Shown in pieces: positions 38,842 through 53,353 of a DNA stretch of 64,000 nt. Both the position numbers and the translations under genes were made by a program. The DNA is from Desulfosudis oleivorans. GTDB lineage: Bacteria > Desulfobacterota > Desulfobacteria > Desulfobacterales > SURF-7. The stretch's first letter is position 1. Every line of letters starts with the position of its first letter. The stretch covers positions 35,196 to 99,195 of the forward strand of contig DYJC01000018.1 in assembly GCA_020723305.1 (NCBI GenBank), read 5' to 3'. The notes below the pieces were generated by a model. That model saw nothing but the letters and a program-made list of their open reading frames with translations, did no database searches and had not been told where the DNA came from.

Positions 38842-38908
38842 TGTTTAAAGGTTCTCAGAATCTGCAGGCTGATTTCTGCGGTTGCAGGAATCCGGATCTG
38901 GTTTACCC

Positions 38909-39913
38909 ATGAAACGTGTGTCCCTGTATGCAGCCGTTTGCCTTGCCCCCATCATCTGTATTTTCCTGTCCCTCTGTATGGGCCGCTATCCTCTTGGCCT
39001 GTCCGATGTGATGAATGCCCTTGGCAACGTGCCCTTATGGACAGACAACTCATCATTTGGAATCAATCATACAATCATATGGGAAATACGGTTGCCCAGG
39101 GCGATTTTGGGGGCCATGGTCGGGGCATGTCTCGCGGTCAGCGGGGTAGCATTTCAGGGCCTTTTCCGGAATCCCCTGGTCAGTTCCGGAATTTTAGGGG
39201 TCAGCTCCGGTGCGGGGTTTGGAGCGGCTCTGGCCATACTGCTGTTCAACACCGTGGCAGCCGCATATCCCTTTGCACTGGTTTTCGGGATGCTGGCCGT
39301 GGTATGCAGCTATCTTATCGGACGGCTGTACCGCACCACATCTGCGATCATGCTTGTCCTGGGAGGAGTTATCGTATCCTCTGTATTTGCCGCCTTATTA
39401 TCCTTTGTCAAATATGTCGCTGACCCGTATGAACAGTTGCCAGCCATTGTTTTCTGGCTGATGGGCAGCCTCGCGTCCGCCCGTTATTCGGATATTCTAA
39501 TCGCAGGCATTCCCATGTCTATCGGCGTTATCGGATTATTGGCCATCCGCTGGCAGATCAATGTGCTTTCCATGGGGGATCGCGAAGCACAAGCGCTGGG
39601 CATCCATACCAGCCTGAGCAAAGGCATCGTGATTTTCTGCGCGACTCTTGCCACAGCCGGAGCCGTGTGTGTCAGTGGTGTCATCGGCTGGATCGGTCTG
39701 GTCATTCCCCACATCGGAAGAATGCTGATCGGCAACGACAACCGGATACTTATACCGGTCAGCCTGTCACTGGGCGCGTGTTTCCTGATTCTTGTGGACA
39801 TTCTGAGCCGGATAATCACCGGGGCTGAAATTCCACTGGGGATTTTGACAGCCTTGGTGGGAGGGCCTTTTTTTGTTTATCTGTTGAAAAAAACAAAAGG
39901 GGGTGACTGGTAA
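38909..39913 (+). CDS. FecCD/BtuC-type ABC importer permease
   Basis: A 334-residue permease with about nine or ten membrane segments and the family signatures LPRAILGAMVGACLAVSGVAFQGLFRNPL near the start, then VSGVIGWIGLVIPHIGRMLIG and GAEIPLGILTALVGGPFF near the end. These are FecCD features, specific for siderophores, haem or cobalamin. A TTG at 38882 is a possible upstream start. Its stop overlaps the ATPase start by one base. Confidence 0.92.
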   Translation: MKRVSLYAAVCLAPIICIFLSLCMGRYPLGLSDVMNALGNVPLWTDNSSFGINHTIIWEIRLPRAILGAMVGACLAVSGVAFQGLFRNPLVSSGILGVSSGAGFGAALAILLFNTVAAAYPFALVFGMLAVVCSYLIGRLYRTTSAIMLVLGGVIVSSVFAALLSFVKYVADPYEQLPAIVFWLMGSLASARYSDILIAGIPMSIGVIGLLAIRWQINVLSMGDREAQALGIHTSLSKGIVIFCATLATAGAVCVSGVIGWIGLVIPHIGRMLIGNDNRILIPVSLSLGACFLILVDILSRIITGAEIPLGILTALVGGPFFVYLLKKTKGGDW

Positions 39914-40734
39914 TGTCACTTGTCACTATCCGGGATGCCTCATTTTCATATGAAACAAAACAGATCTTCAGCCGGATCAGTTTCAGCGTTGAAAAAGGTG
40001 AAATTTTCTGCCTGATCGGTCCAAACGGATGCGGGAAGACAACCCTGCTGGATTGCGTGCTTGGATTTCATCATTTTCATTCGGGAAAGTTTCAGCTCAT
40101 GGGGAAAGATGCTGCTGGTTTCCGGCCCGGGCGGGTTGCCCGCTTGATTGCCTATGTCCCGCAAATTCATGAGCGGACTTTTCCCTACCTGGTGCGGGAG
40201 ATCGTCACTATGGGAAGATCAGCCCATCTTGGATTTTTTGAATCTCCATCCAGAAAAGATAGAACCATGGCCGAAGAAGCCCTGGAACGGATCGGCATCC
40301 GGCATCTGAGTAGTTGTCCTTACACACAGCTCAGCGGAGGAGAATTGCAGCTTGTGATGATCGCCCGCGCCCTGGTTCAGGAAACACCGGTAATCATCAT
40401 GGATGAACCAACCGCCCATCTGGATTTCCGGTATGAACTGGTTATCATGGAAGTGATTACAGAGCTTGTCAAGGAGAGGGGGCTGTCTGTTATCATGGCG
40501 ACTCATTTTCCGAATCATGCCTTTTATTTTCAAAGCAAACAGATTCAAACATCCATTGCCCTGTTCAATAACGGAAGATTCCTGGCGGCCGGTGAGCCGG
40601 AATCCATTATGGATGAAAACAGCCTTCGAGAACTCTATGGTATTCATGCTGATATTATTTCTCTGACGGATGCAGATGGAAAAACAATGAAACATATTAT
40701 TCCGGTAAGTACAATAAAAGATATGGACGCGTGA
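39913..40734 (+). CDS. ABC importer ATPase (FecE/BtuD type)
   Basis: A 273-residue ATPase. Walker A GPNGCGKTT at 36-44, signature LSGGE at 140-144, Walker B with D164-E165 in VIIMDEPTAHLD, and H-loop MATHF. The order fits the FecE/BtuD group serving metal-chelate importers. Co-transcribed with the permease and binding protein. Confidence 0.93.
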   Translation: MSLVTIRDASFSYETKQIFSRISFSVEKGEIFCLIGPNGCGKTTLLDCVLGFHHFHSGKFQLMGKDAAGFRPGRVARLIAYVPQIHERTFPYLVREIVTMGRSAHLGFFESPSRKDRTMAEEALERIGIRHLSSCPYTQLSGGELQLVMIARALVQETPVIIMDEPTAHLDFRYELVIMEVITELVKERGLSVIMATHFPNHAFYFQSKQIQTSIALFNNGRFLAAGEPESIMDENSLRELYGIHADIISLTDADGKTMKHIIPVSTIKDMDA

Positions 40735-40737
40735 GCA

Positions 40738-41883
40738 ATGAAGATTATTACCCGAAAACATAAACATATATGGCAAGGATTGATTTCGGGCATTATTGCC
40801 TTTTCCATTTCATTGGCAAATCCTTCCGGGGTACTTGCTGTTGAAGCCGGAAATAGCGTTGTGGACGCGCTGGGGCGTCGTGTGGATATTCCGGATACGG
40901 TTGAGCGGATCGGCTGTATGTACGCATTTACCGGCCATGTTGTCGCCATGCTTGGAAAGGCGGATAAAATTGTTGCGGTATCAAACGGGCTCAAACGGGA
41001 TATCCTGCTCACCAGTATGTTTCCTGCCATCCAAAGAGCGGTTGTTCCGAAATTTCAGGGAGCTGTTAATATCGAGGAGCTCACCGGCGCAGCACCGGAC
41101 ATTGTTTTTATTCAGGCTCAGACTGGCCGGGATTCAGCCATGGCGGACAAAATGAAAGCCTGCGGTTTGACCTGGATTGCTGTTGATTTCAATAATATGG
41201 CTCAGCAGCGGGAAGTGATTGGAATGATCGGCAAGGTCATTGGTGCAACGGAAAAAGCCGATGAATATAACCGCTATTACATCCGTTGTATTGAACAGAT
41301 CCAAAATAAGATTGAAGCGGAAATACCTGCCCGGAGCCGTCTTCGGGTATATCATTCAACGGTTGAGCCGAACCGGACATCATTAAAAAACAGCCTCTCT
41401 TCCGACTGGATCAATGCTGCGGGCGTGATCAACGTCACCTCACAGGAATCCACCGGTCTGTTGAACGTAAATGATCAGGCCGGCATGGAACAGATTCTTT
41501 TATGGAATCCGGATATCATTCTGGCAAATGAACCGGGTGTGGCCGATATTATCCGGAAAAATCCCCAATGGTCACCCATAACAGCCGTAAAGAATGACCG
41601 TGTCTACCAGTTGCCCATCGGTATTTCCCGGTGGGGGCATCCCGGTTCCCTGGAAACGCCTCTTGCCATTCTCTGGACGGCAAAAACAGTTTATCCTGAA
41701 AAATTTCAACATATCGACATGCGGCACCAACTCAGGCATTTTTATAAACTTTTTTTCAATTATGATCTTTCCGACAACATGATCACACAGATTCTCAGCG
41801 GCAAGGGAATGCGTCTAAAGAAAAGCGGGAAAAAAGAGAAGAAGGAGAAGGGACAAGAAGATGGATATTCTGATATGCATTGA
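40738..41883 (+). CDS. Periplasmic binding protein of the metal-chelate importer
   Basis: A 381-residue protein with an export signal (GLISGIIAFSISLANPSGVLAVEA) and the TroA/BtuF-like fold: DALGRRVDIPDTVERI, EELTGAAPDIVFIQ, the long central helix, and GISRWGHPGSLETPLAILW. The C-terminus is an unusual lysine-rich tail (KSGKKEKKEKGQ) that overlaps the next gene. It delivers the ligand to the FecCD permease. Confidence 0.88.
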   Translation: MKIITRKHKHIWQGLISGIIAFSISLANPSGVLAVEAGNSVVDALGRRVDIPDTVERIGCMYAFTGHVVAMLGKADKIVAVSNGLKRDILLTSMFPAIQRAVVPKFQGAVNIEELTGAAPDIVFIQAQTGRDSAMADKMKACGLTWIAVDFNNMAQQREVIGMIGKVIGATEKADEYNRYYIRCIEQIQNKIEAEIPARSRLRVYHSTVEPNRTSLKNSLSSDWINAAGVINVTSQESTGLLNVNDQAGMEQILLWNPDIILANEPGVADIIRKNPQWSPITAVKNDRVYQLPIGISRWGHPGSLETPLAILWTAKTVYPEKFQHIDMRHQLRHFYKLFFNYDLSDNMITQILSGKGMRLKKSGKKEKKEKGQEDGYSDMH

Positions 41884-44664: not shown

Positions 44665-44878
44665 CGGATCAGTTTACCAATAAAAAACAGGATAAAAAAA
44701 ACAGGATTGACGGTTATGGCCCGGTTTGATATCAATAATTTCAATCTGAAGAGACGAAACAATAGAAAAAATCTATACCTCGAACAAAAATGACCTCGAA
44801 TAAAATTGTTGTTTCGTTTTCTAAACCCCGGCCCAGGGGGGAATAAGTTTCTTACCTTTAACCTGATAGGAGATCATT
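44665..44878. other. 5' leader of sbtA with promoter and long inverted repeat
   Basis: ACGAAACAA at 44754-44762 is complementary to TTGTTTCGT at 44809-44817, extendable by wobble pairs, so the mRNA upstream of sbtA can form a long hairpin with a 46-base loop. CCCC (44825) and GGGG further on make a second short hairpin just before the ribosome site. Confidence 0.45.
44707..44735 (+). promoter_or_regulatory. Putative promoter of sbtA
   Basis: TTGACG at 44707-44712, 17 bases, then TATCAA at 44730-44735. The long leader hairpin begins a few bases after the inferred transcription start. Confidence 0.4.
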
Positions 44879-45106
44879 ATGGATGGTAAAGATTTAAAAA
44901 AGATCCTTGCAGGTTTCTGCGTTGCCGGCCTGATTACAGGATCTGCATTTGTTCTGGATGGCTGCTCATCCGGTAACAGTGCCTGAAGCGGCGACAAAAA
45001 GGGAGCAGGTAGTTCCCAAAGCGGTTGAAGTGGCAGTCATTCCGGTGCCGGTGGCACTGACGAGGATGTAAAAAAAGAAAAACCCGCGAAAAGCGGCTGA
45101 AACTAG
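44879..45106 (+). CDS. sbtA: SbtA-family seleno-RiPP precursor with three UGA selenocysteines
   Basis: A 75-residue precursor if UGA is read as selenocysteine (U). ATG 44879 follows AGGAG by six bases. The leader, MDGKDLKKILAGFCVAGLIT and on to GSAFVLDGCSSGNSA, has basic residues then a hydrophobic stretch. The core has U36 in SAUSG, U50 in SGUSG and U74 in SGUN, at 44984, 45026 and 45098, before the TAG at 45104. The U/SG repeats and Gly/Ser-rich spacers match the SbtA family of thio(seleno)RiPP precursors, recalled from NCBI family naming. A hairpin with G-U in its apical loop follows each UGA at almost the same distance, as expected for bacterial SECIS. SbtM, the radical SAM maturase, is next. 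Without Sec, reading stops after residue 35. It could instead end at the third UGA, but the third hairpin argues against it. Confidence 0.85.
45001..45017 (+). ncRNA. SECIS-like hairpin after the first UGA of sbtA
   Basis: GGGAGC at 45001-45006 pairs with GTTCCC at 45012-45017 (one G-U pair); the loop is AGGTA, beginning 21 bases after the UGA at 44984-44986. The E. coli fdhF SECIS has loop AGGUCU about 18 bases after its UGA. Confidence 0.7.
45044..45058 (+). ncRNA. SECIS-like hairpin after the second UGA of sbtA
   Basis: GTGCC at 45045-45049 pairs with GGCAC at 45053-45057, extended by a G-U pair; loop GGT starts 22 bases after the UGA at 45026-45028. Confidence 0.6.
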
Positions 45107-45113
45107 CCGGTTC

Positions 45114-45130
45114 ACACGCAGTCTGCGTGT
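45114..45130 (+). ncRNA. SECIS-like hairpin after the third UGA of sbtA
   Basis: ACACGCA at 45114-45120 pairs perfectly with TGCGTGT at 45124-45130; loop GTC begins 21 bases after the UGA at 45098-45100. It lies beyond the TAG at 45104, so it cannot be a coding constraint. It lacks a T-run and so is not a typical terminator. Confidence 0.6.
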
Positions 45131-45185
45131 ATGGTTTCAGACCAGATGAAGGTAAACGTACATTTCCATTTTTCATTGAGACATT

Positions 45186-46787
45186 GTGACCTGTATCAGC
45201 AGTGAAAGATTTCAATCTGTCTTCTCCACATGCCGCCGCATCCTTGGCAAGAAAACCTGGGACAGGGTGCTGGCGGCACTGGATCATGATGCTGAACCGC
45301 AAACACTTCCGGATGTGCTGGTTTCTCTGAAGACAGAGCATCATCTTCCTGATTATATTGATGATCTTGCCCGTCTGGAATGGATCTATCACCAGATCAA
45401 AACAGAGAATGTATATCCGGTAGAATCACCTGAAAAAACTGCGATCAATCCAACCCTCTCCCTTGTTCCGGTTTCCTGGAAGAATATTGCTGCTATGTTG
45501 GCAGGCCTTTCTAAGGCTGACGGCCCCCAGCCGGAAGCATCTCCAGCTCATGTCATTGTCTGGCGTCATCCGGAAACAAATGAAATTCATATCCGGGAAG
45601 CCCTTGATATCGATCTTCTGGCTTTGAAGATTGTTGTCGAAGAGATCGATCCGCAGGAAGCAGCGAAAACAGGAGGGACAACTGTCGGGGCTATACAGAA
45701 TGCATTGAAAAGAGCGGTTTCACAGGGCATTCTTGTTTCGCCGCCATCCCGGATCAGAAGAGATGCTCCTGCTTTGTTGCAATCTCCAAAAATATGTAAA
45801 GCATTTGAATCCGCAGATATTTTTACGCTCCAATGGCATGTCACCCAGGCTTGCGATCTTCATTGCCGGCACTGTTATGACCGCAGTGACCGGGAACCGA
45901 TGGCATATGAAACGGCCCTTTCCATCCTCGATGATTTTTATGCATTTTGCTGCCGGATGAATGTAAGAGGGCAGGTGACCTTTACCGGAGGGAATCCGCT
46001 GTTATATCCGGATTTTTTGAAACTGTATCATGCCGCGTCTGATAAGGGTTTTGGAGTAGCCATACTGGGCAACCCCACTTCCGAGGCCCAGATGGAAAGG
46101 CTTTTTGAAAAAACAAAGCCTCTTTTTTTTCAGATCAGTCTGGAAGGCCTGGAGAAACACAATGATTATATGCGGGGAGACGGTCATTTTCAGCGTTCTC
46201 TTCTCTTTCTGGAGCAACTCAGAAAGATGGGGATTTACAGCATGGTCATGCTTACCCTGACCCGTGAAAATCTAAATCAGGTTCTTCCCCTGGGAGAATT
46301 ACTCCGGGACCGAGCGGATTATTTTACCTTCAACCGTCTTTCCACGGTGGGAGAGGGTAAACGCCTTCTGATGCCTCAAAAAGAAAAATGGATCGCTTTT
46401 TTACGTGACTATGAAGAAGCGGCAGGGAAAAATCCGATACTGGGTCTGAAGGACAATCTGATCAATATCATACGGAGAGAAAAAGAGATCGAGTTTTTTG
46501 GCGGATGCACAGGGTATGGATGTGGTGCGGCATTTAATTTTGTATCATTGCTTCCGGACGGCGAGGTACATGCCTGCAGGAAGTTCCCTTCGCCAATCGG
46601 CAATATCCGGCAAACATCTCTTTTGGATATTTATCATTCCGACCTTGCCGGAAAATATCGGAATGGAAGCGAGGCATGTCAGCGCTGCAACCTGAATCCG
46701 GTCTGCAGGGGCTGCCTTGCGATCATCCACAGCCATGGCCTGAATGTTTTCAAGGATAAAGATCCTTTCTGTTTTTTTCCCGGTTAA
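45186..46787 (+). CDS. sbtM: Radical SAM/SPASM peptide maturase SbtM
   Basis: A 533-residue radical SAM enzyme. The SAM cluster cysteines are C223, C227 and C230 in TQACDLHCRHCYDRS. The C-terminal SPASM/Twitch domain has GGCTGYGCGAAFNF, VHACRKFPSPIGNI and ACQRCNLNPVCRGC, giving enough Cys for two auxiliary [4Fe-4S] clusters. A ~200-residue N-terminal helical domain, with GKKTWDRVLAALDHDAEPQT at the start, would recognise the leader. It is the maturase of the thio(seleno)RiPP family, expected to act on U/C-Gly sites of SbtA. GTG 45186 is the first start after an in-frame stop and has only a weak GAG site upstream. The chemistry of the mature product is unknown. Confidence 0.88.
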   Translation: MTCISSERFQSVFSTCRRILGKKTWDRVLAALDHDAEPQTLPDVLVSLKTEHHLPDYIDDLARLEWIYHQIKTENVYPVESPEKTAINPTLSLVPVSWKNIAAMLAGLSKADGPQPEASPAHVIVWRHPETNEIHIREALDIDLLALKIVVEEIDPQEAAKTGGTTVGAIQNALKRAVSQGILVSPPSRIRRDAPALLQSPKICKAFESADIFTLQWHVTQACDLHCRHCYDRSDREPMAYETALSILDDFYAFCCRMNVRGQVTFTGGNPLLYPDFLKLYHAASDKGFGVAILGNPTSEAQMERLFEKTKPLFFQISLEGLEKHNDYMRGDGHFQRSLLFLEQLRKMGIYSMVMLTLTRENLNQVLPLGELLRDRADYFTFNRLSTVGEGKRLLMPQKEKWIAFLRDYEEAAGKNPILGLKDNLINIIRREKEIEFFGGCTGYGCGAAFNFVSLLPDGEVHACRKFPSPIGNIRQTSLLDIYHSDLAGKYRNGSEACQRCNLNPVCRGCLAIIHSHGLNVFKDKDPFCFFPG

Positions 46788-50196: not shown

Positions 50197-50697
50197 CTAC
50201 TTGAGTTTTTCAGAGCATTGAGACAAACATGCCTTGCATTTTTTCCAGCCATCTGCATCGGGCTTACAGGAATGGATAAAGGCCTGCTTCCAGCCATCCC
50301 CTGTTCGAGGGCACTCATCAATGAATTTTATAAATTGAACGATCATCCCAAACGATTTTTTATCTAATGTATGTTCCATACGGCAAGCAGTTTCATCCGC
50401 TTGTTTTTCATCAATCTGCAAGACTCTTGAAAGAAAATCCTGAATTACCACATGCCGCATGTTCATCTCTTTGGCGATTGCCATGCCGCTTTCCGTCAGA
50501 GTGATATAACTGTATGGCTCGTAGTTGATTAATTTTTTTTCAGCGAGGTTTTTAAGCGCACTAGTCACTGAGCCGCTTTGGATTCCCATTTTTTCGGCAA
50601 TATCTTTGACCCTTGCGACTTTGTTTCCCTTTTCAAGTTCTAAAATAATTTCCAGGTAATCTTCAAGGCTTTCAGAGAGTTGTTTGTCTTGTGCCAT
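50197..50697 (-). CDS. DtxR/MntR-family metal-dependent repressor
   Basis: A 166-residue regulator. The winged helix (LSESLEDYLEIILELEKGNKVARVKDIAEKMGIQSGSVTSALKNL) and the dimerisation part with metal ligands (M, E, H and C in ETACRMEHTLDKKS) are typical. It is divergent from feoA, sharing an AT-rich 165-base region, so it probably represses feoAB when iron is plentiful. The C-terminus ends with extra cysteines (KKCKACLSQC). Confidence 0.9.
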   Translation of the reverse strand: MAQDKQLSESLEDYLEIILELEKGNKVARVKDIAEKMGIQSGSVTSALKNLAEKKLINYEPYSYITLTESGMAIAKEMNMRHVVIQDFLSRVLQIDEKQADETACRMEHTLDKKSFGMIVQFIKFIDECPRTGDGWKQAFIHSCKPDADGWKKCKACLSQCSEKLK

Positions 50698-50862: not shown

Positions 50863-51102
50863 ATGAATCGAATCAAAATGCGGGAAATGGATGACAATCA
50901 AAAAGGCGTTATATCTGCGATTAAGGTTGCCGGGGAACTGGGCAGAAGAATTCGAGATATGGGCCTGATTCCGGGAACTGAAATTAAAATTAAAGGGCGT
51001 GCGCCGCTTTACGATCCAATTGTTTTGCAGGTAAAAAAATACATTCTGGCTCTGCGTAATAGTGAGGCAGAGCATATCATGGTGGATGTGGATGAACAAT
51101 AA
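50863..51102 (+). CDS. feoA: Ferrous iron transport protein FeoA
   Basis: A 79-residue SH3-like protein with the FeoA core GELGRRIRDMGLIPGTEIKI and DPIVLQVKKYILALRNSEAEHI. It supports Fe2+ uptake by FeoB. Its end overlaps feoB by 11 bases. Confidence 0.93.
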   Translation: MNRIKMREMDDNQKGVISAIKVAGELGRRIRDMGLIPGTEIKIKGRAPLYDPIVLQVKKYILALRNSEAEHIMVDVDEQ

Positions 51103-53353
51103 CAGCACCGGCAAGATGCAGATGCAGGCAGACAAGCAGATAGCACTGGCTGGAAACCCCAACTCCGGCAAAACAACTTTATTTAATGAGTTAACAGGTT
51201 CACGTCAGCATGTGGGCAATTATCCTGGGATTACGGTTGAAAAAAAACAAGGAACCTGCATCCAGGATGGATACAAAATCAATATTGTTGATCTTCCGGG
51301 AATTTATTCCCTTTCTGCATATTCCATTGAAGAAGTTGTTGCCCGGGACTTTTTGATCAATGAAAAGCCCAACGCGGTGATTGATATCGTAGATGCTTCC
51401 AACTTGGAGCGAAACCTGTATCTGACAATTCAATTTTTGGAACTAGGTATTCCGCTTTGTATTGCTCTGAACATGATGGATGAAGCAGAAACACGCGGCA
51501 TGCGCATTGATGAAAAACGGCTCTCGAGGATTCTGGGTGTTGCAGTAATTCCCACGGTTGCACGCAGCGCCAAGGGCAAAGACCAGCTCATGGCTGCGGT
51601 TATGGAGATGATGAGCCACAACAAGGAATATACACCTCTTGAGATCTCGTATGGATCGGATGTGGATAGCGCTCTGCTGACCATGATAAAGGAGATAATC
51701 ACTGCTGATTTCCTGACTGAGCGATATGCTGCACGGTGGACAGCGCTTAAATATCTTGAAAATGACGCCCAAATGATCGCAGCCGGGCAAGAAAAGAATC
51801 CGGTTTTGTCTGCCCGGCTTTTAAAAATTCGCGAGAAGCTGGCCCGGCATCTGAAAGACACGCTGGATACCTATCCTGAAGCCATGATTGCCGATAGTCG
51901 CTATGGCTATATTAACGCCATTCTCAAACAAGGGGTCGTCCAATATTCTCACGATGAAAATAAACTATATCTATCTGATAAAATAGATAAATTTGTTATT
52001 CATCGTTTTTCAGGCCCGTTGATCATGACCGCTGTGCTCGTGGGACTATACCAGTTTACTTTTGCCTATAGTGAAGCCCCGATCAAATGGATAGAGGCTT
52101 TTTTTGAATGGGTTCATGCTATGGCTGCATCCGCTCTGCCACCTGGGCTTTTACAGTCCCTGGTGGTTTCCGGAATTATTGATGGCGTGGGCGGTGTATT
52201 GGGTTTTGTTCCGCTGATCATGTTTATGTTTTTGGGGATCTCTATCCTTGAAGATTCCGGATATATTGCCAGGGTCGCTTTTATGCTTGACCGGGTTTTC
52301 AGAATGTTCGGATTGCATGGCAATTCAGTCATGCCTTATATTGTATCCGGAGGAATTGCCGGGGGCTGCGCCGTACCTGGAGTTATGGCTGCGCGCACAC
52401 TGAAATCGCAAAAGGAACGTCTGGCTACGCTCTTGACCGTACCATTTATGAATTGCGGCGCCAAGCTGCCTGTATTTGCCATGCTGATTTCCGCTTTTTT
52501 CGTAAATCATAAAGCGCAAATCATGTTTGCGATTACGGCTATTTCCTGGGCAATGGCACTCCTGGCCGCCAAATTTCTGCGGCTCACCGTGATCAAAGGA
52601 GAATCCACTCCGTTTGTGATGGAGCTGCCGCCATACCGCTTGCCCACTGTAAAAGGATTATTCATCCATACATGGGAAAGAACCTGGCAGTATATCAAAA
52701 AAGCTGGAACCGTGATTTTGGGGATTTCAATCCTTGTATGGGCGATGATGACCTTTCCGCAATTGCCTGAGGAAAAAGAGCTGATGTTTGCGCAAGAGCA
52801 GCTTGCAATGCATTCAGCATATCCGGCTGCTGTAGCAAACGAATTGAGCATAAAAATTGATCAAAAAAAGCTCTCAAGCGCCGCGCAGGCATTAAAAAAA
52901 AAATTATCCCACATTGAGGGAAAAAGAGCCGAAGCTGCTTTACGGCACTCACTGGCCGGTCGTTTTGGGATTGCGATAGAGGGCATAAGCAAGTGGGCTG
53001 GATTTGACTGGCGCACCAATATCGCACTTGTGGGTGGTTTTGCAGCAAAAGAAGTAATTGTTTCAACCCTGGGGATCGCCTATTCTTTGGCAGACATTGA
53101 CACAGAAGCATTTGATTCCCTATCTGAAACCTTGGCGCATTCACCGAACTGGAATCCGCTGGCTGCTTTCAGTTTGATGCTTTTTGTTTTATTTTACGCA
53201 CCCTGTTTTATAACAGTGGTCACCATCGCGAGAGAATCAGGTTCATGGAAATGGGGATTTTTTTCCATGGTTTTTAATACGATTATTGCTTTTATGATCT
53301 CAGTGGTTGTTTTTCAGGCAGGGTCATTTCTGGGCATTGGCATAAGACCATAG
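51092..53353 (+). CDS. feoB: Ferrous iron transporter FeoB
   Basis: A 753-residue inner-membrane transporter. The N-terminal GTPase has G1 GNPNSGKTT at 21-29, DLPGIYSL (G3) and NMMDEA (G4); it is followed by the helical GDI part and two gate regions (CAVPGVMAARTLKS and NCGAKLPVFAML) in the channel, each with the conserved Cys. It imports Fe2+ and is typical of anaerobes. The start overlaps feoA by 11 bases, indicating coupling; an in-frame ATG at 51116 is an alternative. The long, soluble loop around 52800-52930 is lysine-rich. Confidence 0.95.
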   Translation: MNNNSTGKMQMQADKQIALAGNPNSGKTTLFNELTGSRQHVGNYPGITVEKKQGTCIQDGYKINIVDLPGIYSLSAYSIEEVVARDFLINEKPNAVIDIVDASNLERNLYLTIQFLELGIPLCIALNMMDEAETRGMRIDEKRLSRILGVAVIPTVARSAKGKDQLMAAVMEMMSHNKEYTPLEISYGSDVDSALLTMIKEIITADFLTERYAARWTALKYLENDAQMIAAGQEKNPVLSARLLKIREKLARHLKDTLDTYPEAMIADSRYGYINAILKQGVVQYSHDENKLYLSDKIDKFVIHRFSGPLIMTAVLVGLYQFTFAYSEAPIKWIEAFFEWVHAMAASALPPGLLQSLVVSGIIDGVGGVLGFVPLIMFMFLGISILEDSGYIARVAFMLDRVFRMFGLHGNSVMPYIVSGGIAGGCAVPGVMAARTLKSQKERLATLLTVPFMNCGAKLPVFAMLISAFFVNHKAQIMFAITAISWAMALLAAKFLRLTVIKGESTPFVMELPPYRLPTVKGLFIHTWERTWQYIKKAGTVILGISILVWAMMTFPQLPEEKELMFAQEQLAMHSAYPAAVANELSIKIDQKKLSSAAQALKKKLSHIEGKRAEAALRHSLAGRFGIAIEGISKWAGFDWRTNIALVGGFAAKEVIVSTLGIAYSLADIDTEAFDSLSETLAHSPNWNPLAAFSLMLFVLFYAPCFITVVTIARESGSWKWGFFSMVFNTIIAFMISVVVFQAGSFLGIGIRP

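Follow-up and report, generated by a model that had tools for sequence, protein, structure and literature searches.

We report here on a small gene, sbtA, and its neighbor sbtM in a 64,000-nucleotide stretch of the Desulfosudis oleivorans genome (contig DYJC01000018.1, positions 35,196 to 99,195 of the forward strand; hereafter the window). We propose that sbtA encodes the precursor of a ribosomally synthesized and post-translationally modified peptide (RiPP) with three selenocysteine (Sec) residues, that SbtM forms thio(seleno)oxazole rings on it, and that the exported product would be a soft-metal binder, an anaerobic counterpart of the captophorins; taken as a whole, we regard this proposal as evenly balanced between right and wrong. 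An earlier note, made from the DNA letters, had described a seleno-RiPP precursor with three Sec codons, three selenocysteine insertion sequence (SECIS) hairpins and an adjoining radical S-adenosylmethionine (SAM)/SPASM maturase, and protein models, hairpins and the Sec machinery of the genome all support that description. Its assignment of the pair to the SbtA/SbtM family also holds, given that both curated models are matched above their cut-offs, TIGR04081 by SbtA with 48.5 bits (cut-off 30.5, covering leader residues 1-26) and TIGR04082 by SbtM with 722 bits (cut-off 350).

On re-reading the sequence, the gene and UGA positions given before, together with the SG-U and SA-U contexts, were correct (Table 1). 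Standard gene calling probably misses sbtA, as had been claimed, because no open reading frame (ORF) of at least 60 amino acids is listed there on the + strand. In an alignment of the 14-member clade that includes the window, the GGAG of the ribosome-binding site is kept in place. The source genome (5.40 Mb, 47 contigs) also contains the machinery that the earlier proposal called for: profile searches identified SelA (623 bits), SelB (382 bits), SelD (376 bits) and tRNA-Sec (73 bits), all exceeding their cut-offs, and selD (C41:10371-11294) carries one in-frame TGA, so that SelD is here probably itself a selenoprotein. Co-occurrence of SbtM with selA was discarded as evidence, selA being present in 359 of 389 genomes of the class. 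It is found in 47 of the 48 genomes with SbtM, and the precursor of the one exception, the 67% complete G336, is all-Cys, which is suggestive only.

Each UGA is followed by a hairpin whose loop starts 21, 22 and 21 bases downstream, respectively, exactly where the hairpins had been reported. A SECIS check against a published bacterial model bears out their assignment, since all three satisfy its requirements for a loop of 3-9 nt with a G within the first two loop positions, a spacing of 16-37 nt and an energy of at most -7.5 kcal/mol (PMC13188914). An Rfam scan of the whole window returned nothing at gathering score, and a scan of positions 44850-45200 with E up to 5 gave five chance-level matches, no SECIS among them. 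Taken alone, the window hairpins are modestly unusual and provide weak evidence: 2000 dinucleotide shuffles gave a similar hairpin 111, 286 and 306 times for the three UGAs, and such a hairpin follows 290 of the 2658 TGAs in the window. The claim that near-identical spacing makes chance unlikely is accordingly weak for a single sequence; its conclusion stands, because the comparison across the family, and not the spacing in the window, leads us to accept the hairpins as non-chance. Isolated hairpins of this type are not uncommon in this GC-rich window, which would suit a reading with each UGA as a normal stop: translation would end at 44986, leaving a 35-residue peptide or a pseudogene, and the hairpins would be accidental or part of an antisense gene; on the minus strand, an ORF of 152 aa (44934-45392) indeed overlaps. 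We consider this scarcely credible, because these sites mostly retain UGA or Cys across relatives, selection persists past the UGA, the non-coding third hairpin covaries, and no single antisense frame is consistently open across the 14-member clade.

The family comparison which carries this conclusion draws on SbtM loci from 48 of the 389 class genomes and on 80 named loci, the best 80 of 363 relatives obtained with an alignment as query; a search with a single SbtM sequence found no relative, whereas the alignment query did. After the frame-shifted L019 was dropped, the remaining 104 rows yielded 83 distinct SbtA peptides, in which we counted 194 UGAs and 58 core Cys codons. Named strains among the carriers are Desulfospira joergensenii DSM 10085, Desulfosarcina alkanivorans PL12 and Desulfobacter latus AcRS2. 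The last UGA was treated by hand as the true stop in L045, L053, L065, L092, L110 and L114, and the L071 and L077 peptides were re-read by hand. When a hairpin was defined by at least 5 pairs and a loop centre 19-29 nt from the UGA, it was present at 171 of 194 UGAs, compared to 8 of the 58 core Cys codons; for UGA stops of ORFs longer than 200 aa, the figure was 25 of 188. All 64 terminal UGAs (at most 6 codons from the stop) and 107 of the 130 internal UGAs were accompanied by a hairpin, while dinucleotide shuffles produced on average 6.6 and 12.3, respectively, and sliding the test window by 12 bases lowered the total to 13-16 of 194. Under the stricter published SECIS model, hairpins were retained at 135 of 194 UGAs, 4 of 58 Cys codons and 12 of 188 UGA stops.

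The third hairpin is of particular value, as its position past the stop codon frees it from protein constraint. We aligned 31 of the 64 terminal hairpins, hand-picked, mostly with Sec near the stop and including that of the window genome. In this alignment, 93.0% of cells are paired (70.3% in shuffled alignments), 57 cells have changed on both sides (18.6 in shuffled alignments) and the covariation score is 0.633 (0.206 in shuffled alignments); none of these values was matched in 500 shuffles, and slid versions of the alignment score lower on all three. Bacterial SECIS elements are described as located inside coding regions (PMC13188914); in the SbtA family the last SECIS lies at or past the stop, and in some relatives the stop codon forms part of the stem. 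Among the 83 peptides, 18 have a UGA, taken here as the true stop, at most 3 codons from a UGA read as Sec.

As in other bacterial selenoproteins, Cys takes the place of Sec in some relatives. Within the 14-member clade, site 1 is UGA in 13 members and Cys in L062, which reads SACSG where the window reads SAUSG, site 2 is UGA in 13, and site 3 is UGA in all 14; the cores of some relatives are Cys-only. Loss of the UGAs and hairpins without Cys replacement had been named beforehand as an outcome that would count against the proposal; for the most part the UGAs are kept or swapped for Cys, but site 2 was lost without Cys in L051, the remaining clade member, and in L085 and L044. When the window is compared with L048, L049 and L050, the ratio of nonsynonymous to synonymous change (pN/pS) past the first UGA is 0.30, 0.23 and 0.24, respectively; five other pairs give 0.14, 0.28, 0.15, 0.39 and 0.75, the highest value being that of the L085/L044 pair and stemming from four changes only. 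These comparisons support the view that purifying selection extends past the first UGA of sbtA.

At least one Sec occurs in 74 of the 83 SbtA peptides, three being the commonest number (38 of 83). Known prokaryotic selenoprotein families mostly contain one Sec, with two or three in a small subset, and the catalogue entry for SbtA lists two (PMC13188914, Table 1), in contrast to the three of the window peptide with its third SECIS past the stop. The SbtA of L020 (genome G166; L020:678-1325) has ten Sec codons, nine of them followed by a hairpin at the typical distance, in a 60-base tandem repeat of 8.5 copies with 91% matches; the array is also present at L140:4675-5179. Because hairpins, covariation, Sec/Cys exchange, purifying selection and machinery all point to read-through, SelB and Sec-tRNA would almost certainly read each UGA of sbtA via its own hairpin, the third of which lies in the 3' untranslated region.

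The hairpins appear to have left their mark on the peptide. A GAG[GS][ST]-like stretch follows 115 of 127 internal UGAs but 3 of 41 Cys codons; for sampled Gly/Ser/Ala codons the count is 121 of 322, with the motif list drawn up after the data were seen and many of the sampled codons flanking the same stretches. The most economical reading is that the repeated GAG[GS] stretch of the core reflects the SECIS RNA at the coding level, and that it is no motif of the peptide as such. In L085 (Desulfobacter latus), L044 and L046, Sec is missing at the second position or replaced by Cys (SDSSND, SDLSDD and SGCSGD), and all three still keep the GAGGT-coding stretch, wholly or nearly, which looks like a relic SECIS. 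Some internal Sec codons of the Nitrospirota members L081, L089, L068 and L091 are without a hairpin at the usual distance; they sit 10-16 codons 5' of another Sec codon. One SECIS may serve two UGAs there, or a second type of SECIS may be used, for which a recurring GGTGA[CT]GC stretch is a candidate.

Table 1. Positions of sbtA, sbtM and associated features in the window.
Feature	Position	Strand	Basis or remarks
sbtA precursor, 75 residues, MDGKDLKK...SAUSG...SGUSG...KSGUN	44879..45106	+	translation with UGA = Sec; TIGR04081 match
sbtA start ATG; stop TAG	44879; 45104-45106	+	read in sequence
sbtA ribosome-binding site AGGAG	44868..44872	+	read in sequence
Putative leader, lipoprotein-signal-peptide-like	44879..44965	+	ends in lipobox-like L-D-G-C (44954-44965)
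Sec codon 1 (U36), context SAU	TGA 44984-44986	+	
Sec codon 2 (U50), context SGU	TGA 45026-45028	+	
Sec codon 3 (U74), context SGU	TGA 45098-45100	+	TAG stop one codon later
SECIS hairpin 1, GGGAGC-AGGTA-GTTCCC	45001..45017	+	-7.9 kcal/mol, spacing 20 nt; doubles as code for GAGSS
SECIS hairpin 2, CGGTGCC-GGT-GGCACTG	45043..45059	+	-9.1 kcal/mol, spacing 21 nt; doubles as code for GAGGT
SECIS hairpin 3, ACACGCA-GTC-TGCGTGT	45114..45130	+	-8.0 kcal/mol, spacing 20 nt; non-coding, past stop codon
Putative site, C-rich/G-rich dyad (CCCC-R-GGGG type)	44832..44841	+	pattern search; ~47 bases 5' of sbtA start
sbtM, radical SAM/SPASM thio(seleno)oxazole maturase, 533 aa	45186..46787	+	TIGR04082; GTG start assumed
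SbtM N-terminal ~188 residues	45186..45749	+	homologous to DUF2063-RRE partner proteins
SbtM radical SAM domain, residues 219-368	45840..46289	+	Pfam PF04055
SbtM SPASM domain, residues 446-510	46521..46715	+	Pfam PF13186
FecCD/BtuD-type ABC importer genes	38882-41883		upstream of sbtAM, within ~7 kb
DtxR-type repressor	50197-50697		downstream of sbtAM, within ~7 kb
FeoB	51062-53353		downstream of sbtAM, within ~7 kb

The maturase gene starts 79 bases 3' of the sbtA stop. Among the best 80 of 363 relatives, the closest named SbtM is that of L048, a Desulfobacteraceae bacterium, with 75% identity; our SbtM tree is a quick one in which row L061 is misframed, and it was used for nearest relatives and group counts only. 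For the whole protein, the nearest solved structures are SuiB, the sactipeptide maturase 5wgg/5why (CteB) and SkfB, and the second-best NCBIfam match is the ACGX-system model TIGR04340, with which SbtM has radical SAM and SPASM in common. The N-terminal module of SbtM is homologous to the DUF2063-RiPP recognition element (RRE) partners (PME1) which accompany multinuclear non-heme iron-dependent oxidative (MNIO) enzymes. Standalone relatives of this module in the protein database amounted to 10 matches only, three with an annotated radical SAM domain and the rest with no annotated domain, which we take as pieces of SbtM. When a profile of this N-terminus was run against PDB sequences by hmmsearch, two chance-level matches resulted, 3dee not among them. 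Given the observed homology, we predict that these ~188 residues probably hold the SbtA leader.

The earlier note regarded product and chemistry as undetermined, which no longer applies at the level of the family. In vitro, SbtM (Lewis et al., 2021) forms the thio(seleno)oxazole, acting on both Cys- and Sec-substrates with loss of four hydrogens, and nuclear magnetic resonance identified the Cys product as a thiooxazole (PMC11002830). The SbtM product absorbs at ~302-305 nm, as do the thiooxazole peptides of bufferins, captophorins and bulbicupramide (PMC12668002, PMC12538549). The pair in the window shares with the known SbtA/SbtM RiPPs a leader and a maturase above cut-off, Sec in the core and, as a family, this ring chemistry in vitro. 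By analogy with the characterized family member, the radical SAM/SPASM part of the window SbtM would very probably oxidize X-Sec units to seleno-oxazoles.

The SbtA leaders suggest where the product might go. A lipobox-like pattern is found in 52 of 83 leaders (pattern counts, not a signal-peptide prediction), and a hydrophobic core in 79 of 83, compared to 149 of 738 neighboring ORFs. In L061, from the Olavius algarvensis Delta 4 endosymbiont, a UGA falls at SbtA residue 29, the position of the lipobox Cys, and represents either Sec at the lipidation site or a sequence error. Because the leader resembles a signal peptide and no recurring exporter or protease was seen, we propose the general secretion route, by which, on balance, the product would leave the cytoplasm to become membrane-anchored or periplasmic. 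Such leaders would equally place at the membrane a redox or electron-transfer peptide that works through selenol or diselenide and has no metal role, and selenocysteine serves mostly redox chemistry (PMC13188914). We judge a function of this kind unlikely, because in vitro the maturase of the family converts the chalcogen residue to a heterocycle, so that the usual pairing of free selenols is lost, and no redox partner recurs nearby, an FMN reductase cluster spanning 5 of the 80 loci.

Our view of the neighborhood comes from ORFs at most 6 kb from SbtM, clustered across the 80 named loci, 46 of which offer 3 kb on both sides, with neighbors named in part. Within these limits, we saw no exporter, protease or immunity gene recurring beside sbtA-sbtM. 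The SbtM cluster is present in 76 loci and the next in 27 (43 ORFs, both strands), and the 15 of these 43 ORFs that Pfam named are a generic mixture of histidine kinases, GGDEF/EAL, HD and sigma-54 activator proteins. A further cluster consists of antisense ORFs (11 loci), and small clusters, with one member checked each, comprise an endonuclease/phosphatase (7 loci), an RNase H fold (6), an alpha/beta hydrolase (6), a flavin mononucleotide (FMN) reductase (5) and one without Pfam match (5). These results bear on the idea of a secreted antimicrobial whose rings are part of the warhead, as implied by the name 'Selenobacteriocin' given to TIGR04081 in a 2026 inventory (PMC13188914, Table 1). Variation of the core between species would fit competition; nevertheless, we consider an antimicrobial improbable, because neither exporter, protease nor immunity gene was seen to recur in the 80 loci, 46 of them with 3 kb on both sides, the one cluster besides SbtM that is present in over 11 of these loci consists of generic signaling proteins (as far as the 15 checked ORFs tell), and the GAG[GS] repeats of the core are accounted for by RNA constraint and not by the peptide.

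A metal-binding product is suggested by comparison with captophorins and bufferins. Captophorins bind copper, and their 5-thiooxazole is associated with an MNIO enzyme and a DUF2063-RRE partner, with O2 being used in MNIO catalysis (PMC12668002, PMC12538549 for the former; PMC12668002 for the latter). Bufferin precursors have Sec-dependent signal peptides (Sec here denoting the secretion pathway), and ~16% of Buf2 are predicted lipoproteins (PMC12452194). SbtA and SbtM share with these systems the homologous DUF2063-RRE module, signal-peptide-like leaders and, at family level for SbtM, a ring of the thiooxazole type. They differ in that captophorins and bufferins use an O2-dependent MNIO, whereas SbtM is a radical SAM/SPASM enzyme fused to the partner module, and in that SbtA has Sec in place of most Cys. 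Radical SAM catalysis needs no O2. In the class, DUF2063 was found in none of 147 genomes and MNIO in one of 147 (a partial match), with SbtM in 48 of 389, and a search of the source genome for MNIO PF05114 gave no match at E <= 1e-10. The shared module, leaders and ring type, together with the near-absence of MNIO and DUF2063 from the class, suggest that SbtA/SbtM is an anaerobic captophorin counterpart. The accessible portions of PMC12452194, PMC12710340, PMC12538549 and PMC12668002 do not mention a link between SbtM and the DUF2063 partners; subscription literature, Lewis 2021 included, may state it.

Several observations are weaker than those above or adverse, both for the hairpins and for the product. 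The energy z-scores of 48-nt windows differ between UGA and Cys codons as averages only (-1.32 compared to -0.19), and at 200 sampled Gly/Ser/Ala codons the z-score is -0.51, with mean energy giving no separation of the UGAs from these. Under a looser rule for loop position, a strong hairpin was also present at 184 of 400 sampled Gly/Ser/Ala codons, since such codons surround the same elements. The number of pairs with both-side change in the terminal hairpins is 5, which is not unusual (141 of 500 shuffles reach it). A metal-gene cluster like the FeoB, DtxR and FecCD genes of the window does not stand out among relatives in the 80 loci. Purely by analogy with captophorins, the selenol-type rings of SbtA might capture Cu(I), or another soft metal, once they are outside the cytoplasm, a role to which we give slightly less than an even chance.

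The region upstream of sbtA contains a dyad whose full type is TTC-N-CCCC-R-GGGG-N-GAA. The pattern lies 42-50 bases ahead of the sbtA start in 12 of the 14 clade members, the remaining two of which carry CCCCGGGG, and anywhere within 250 bases upstream it precedes 19 of 81 family genes compared to 65 of 790 other ORFs. The dyad could be an operator.

Finally, our analyses have implications for annotation and for the biology of the family. Bacterial SECIS elements can sit at or past the stop codon, and the GAG[GS] repeat is best read as an RNA footprint. Moreover, we tentatively suggest, with somewhat more doubt than belief, that SbtA/SbtM is a selenium-based, O2-independent branch of the captophorins that buffers copper and other soft metals, in which an ancestral DUF2063-RRE module would serve MNIO enzymes in aerobes and, as a fusion, radical SAM/SPASM enzymes in sulfate reducers and other anaerobes. 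Both branches would place thiooxazole-type rings on precursors with signal peptides, for metal buffering outside the cytoplasm. If this is true, selenium would replace sulfur in the metal ligand, a peptide carrying as many as ten Sec, nearly all of them with their own SECIS. Two unrelated catalysts, of which only one requires O2, would then install one peptide modification on a common recognition scaffold. The seleno-RiPP family itself is known, and the homology of the module now yields a testable question about its purpose, namely whether the modified peptides act as periplasmic ligands of Cu(I) or another soft metal in anaerobes.
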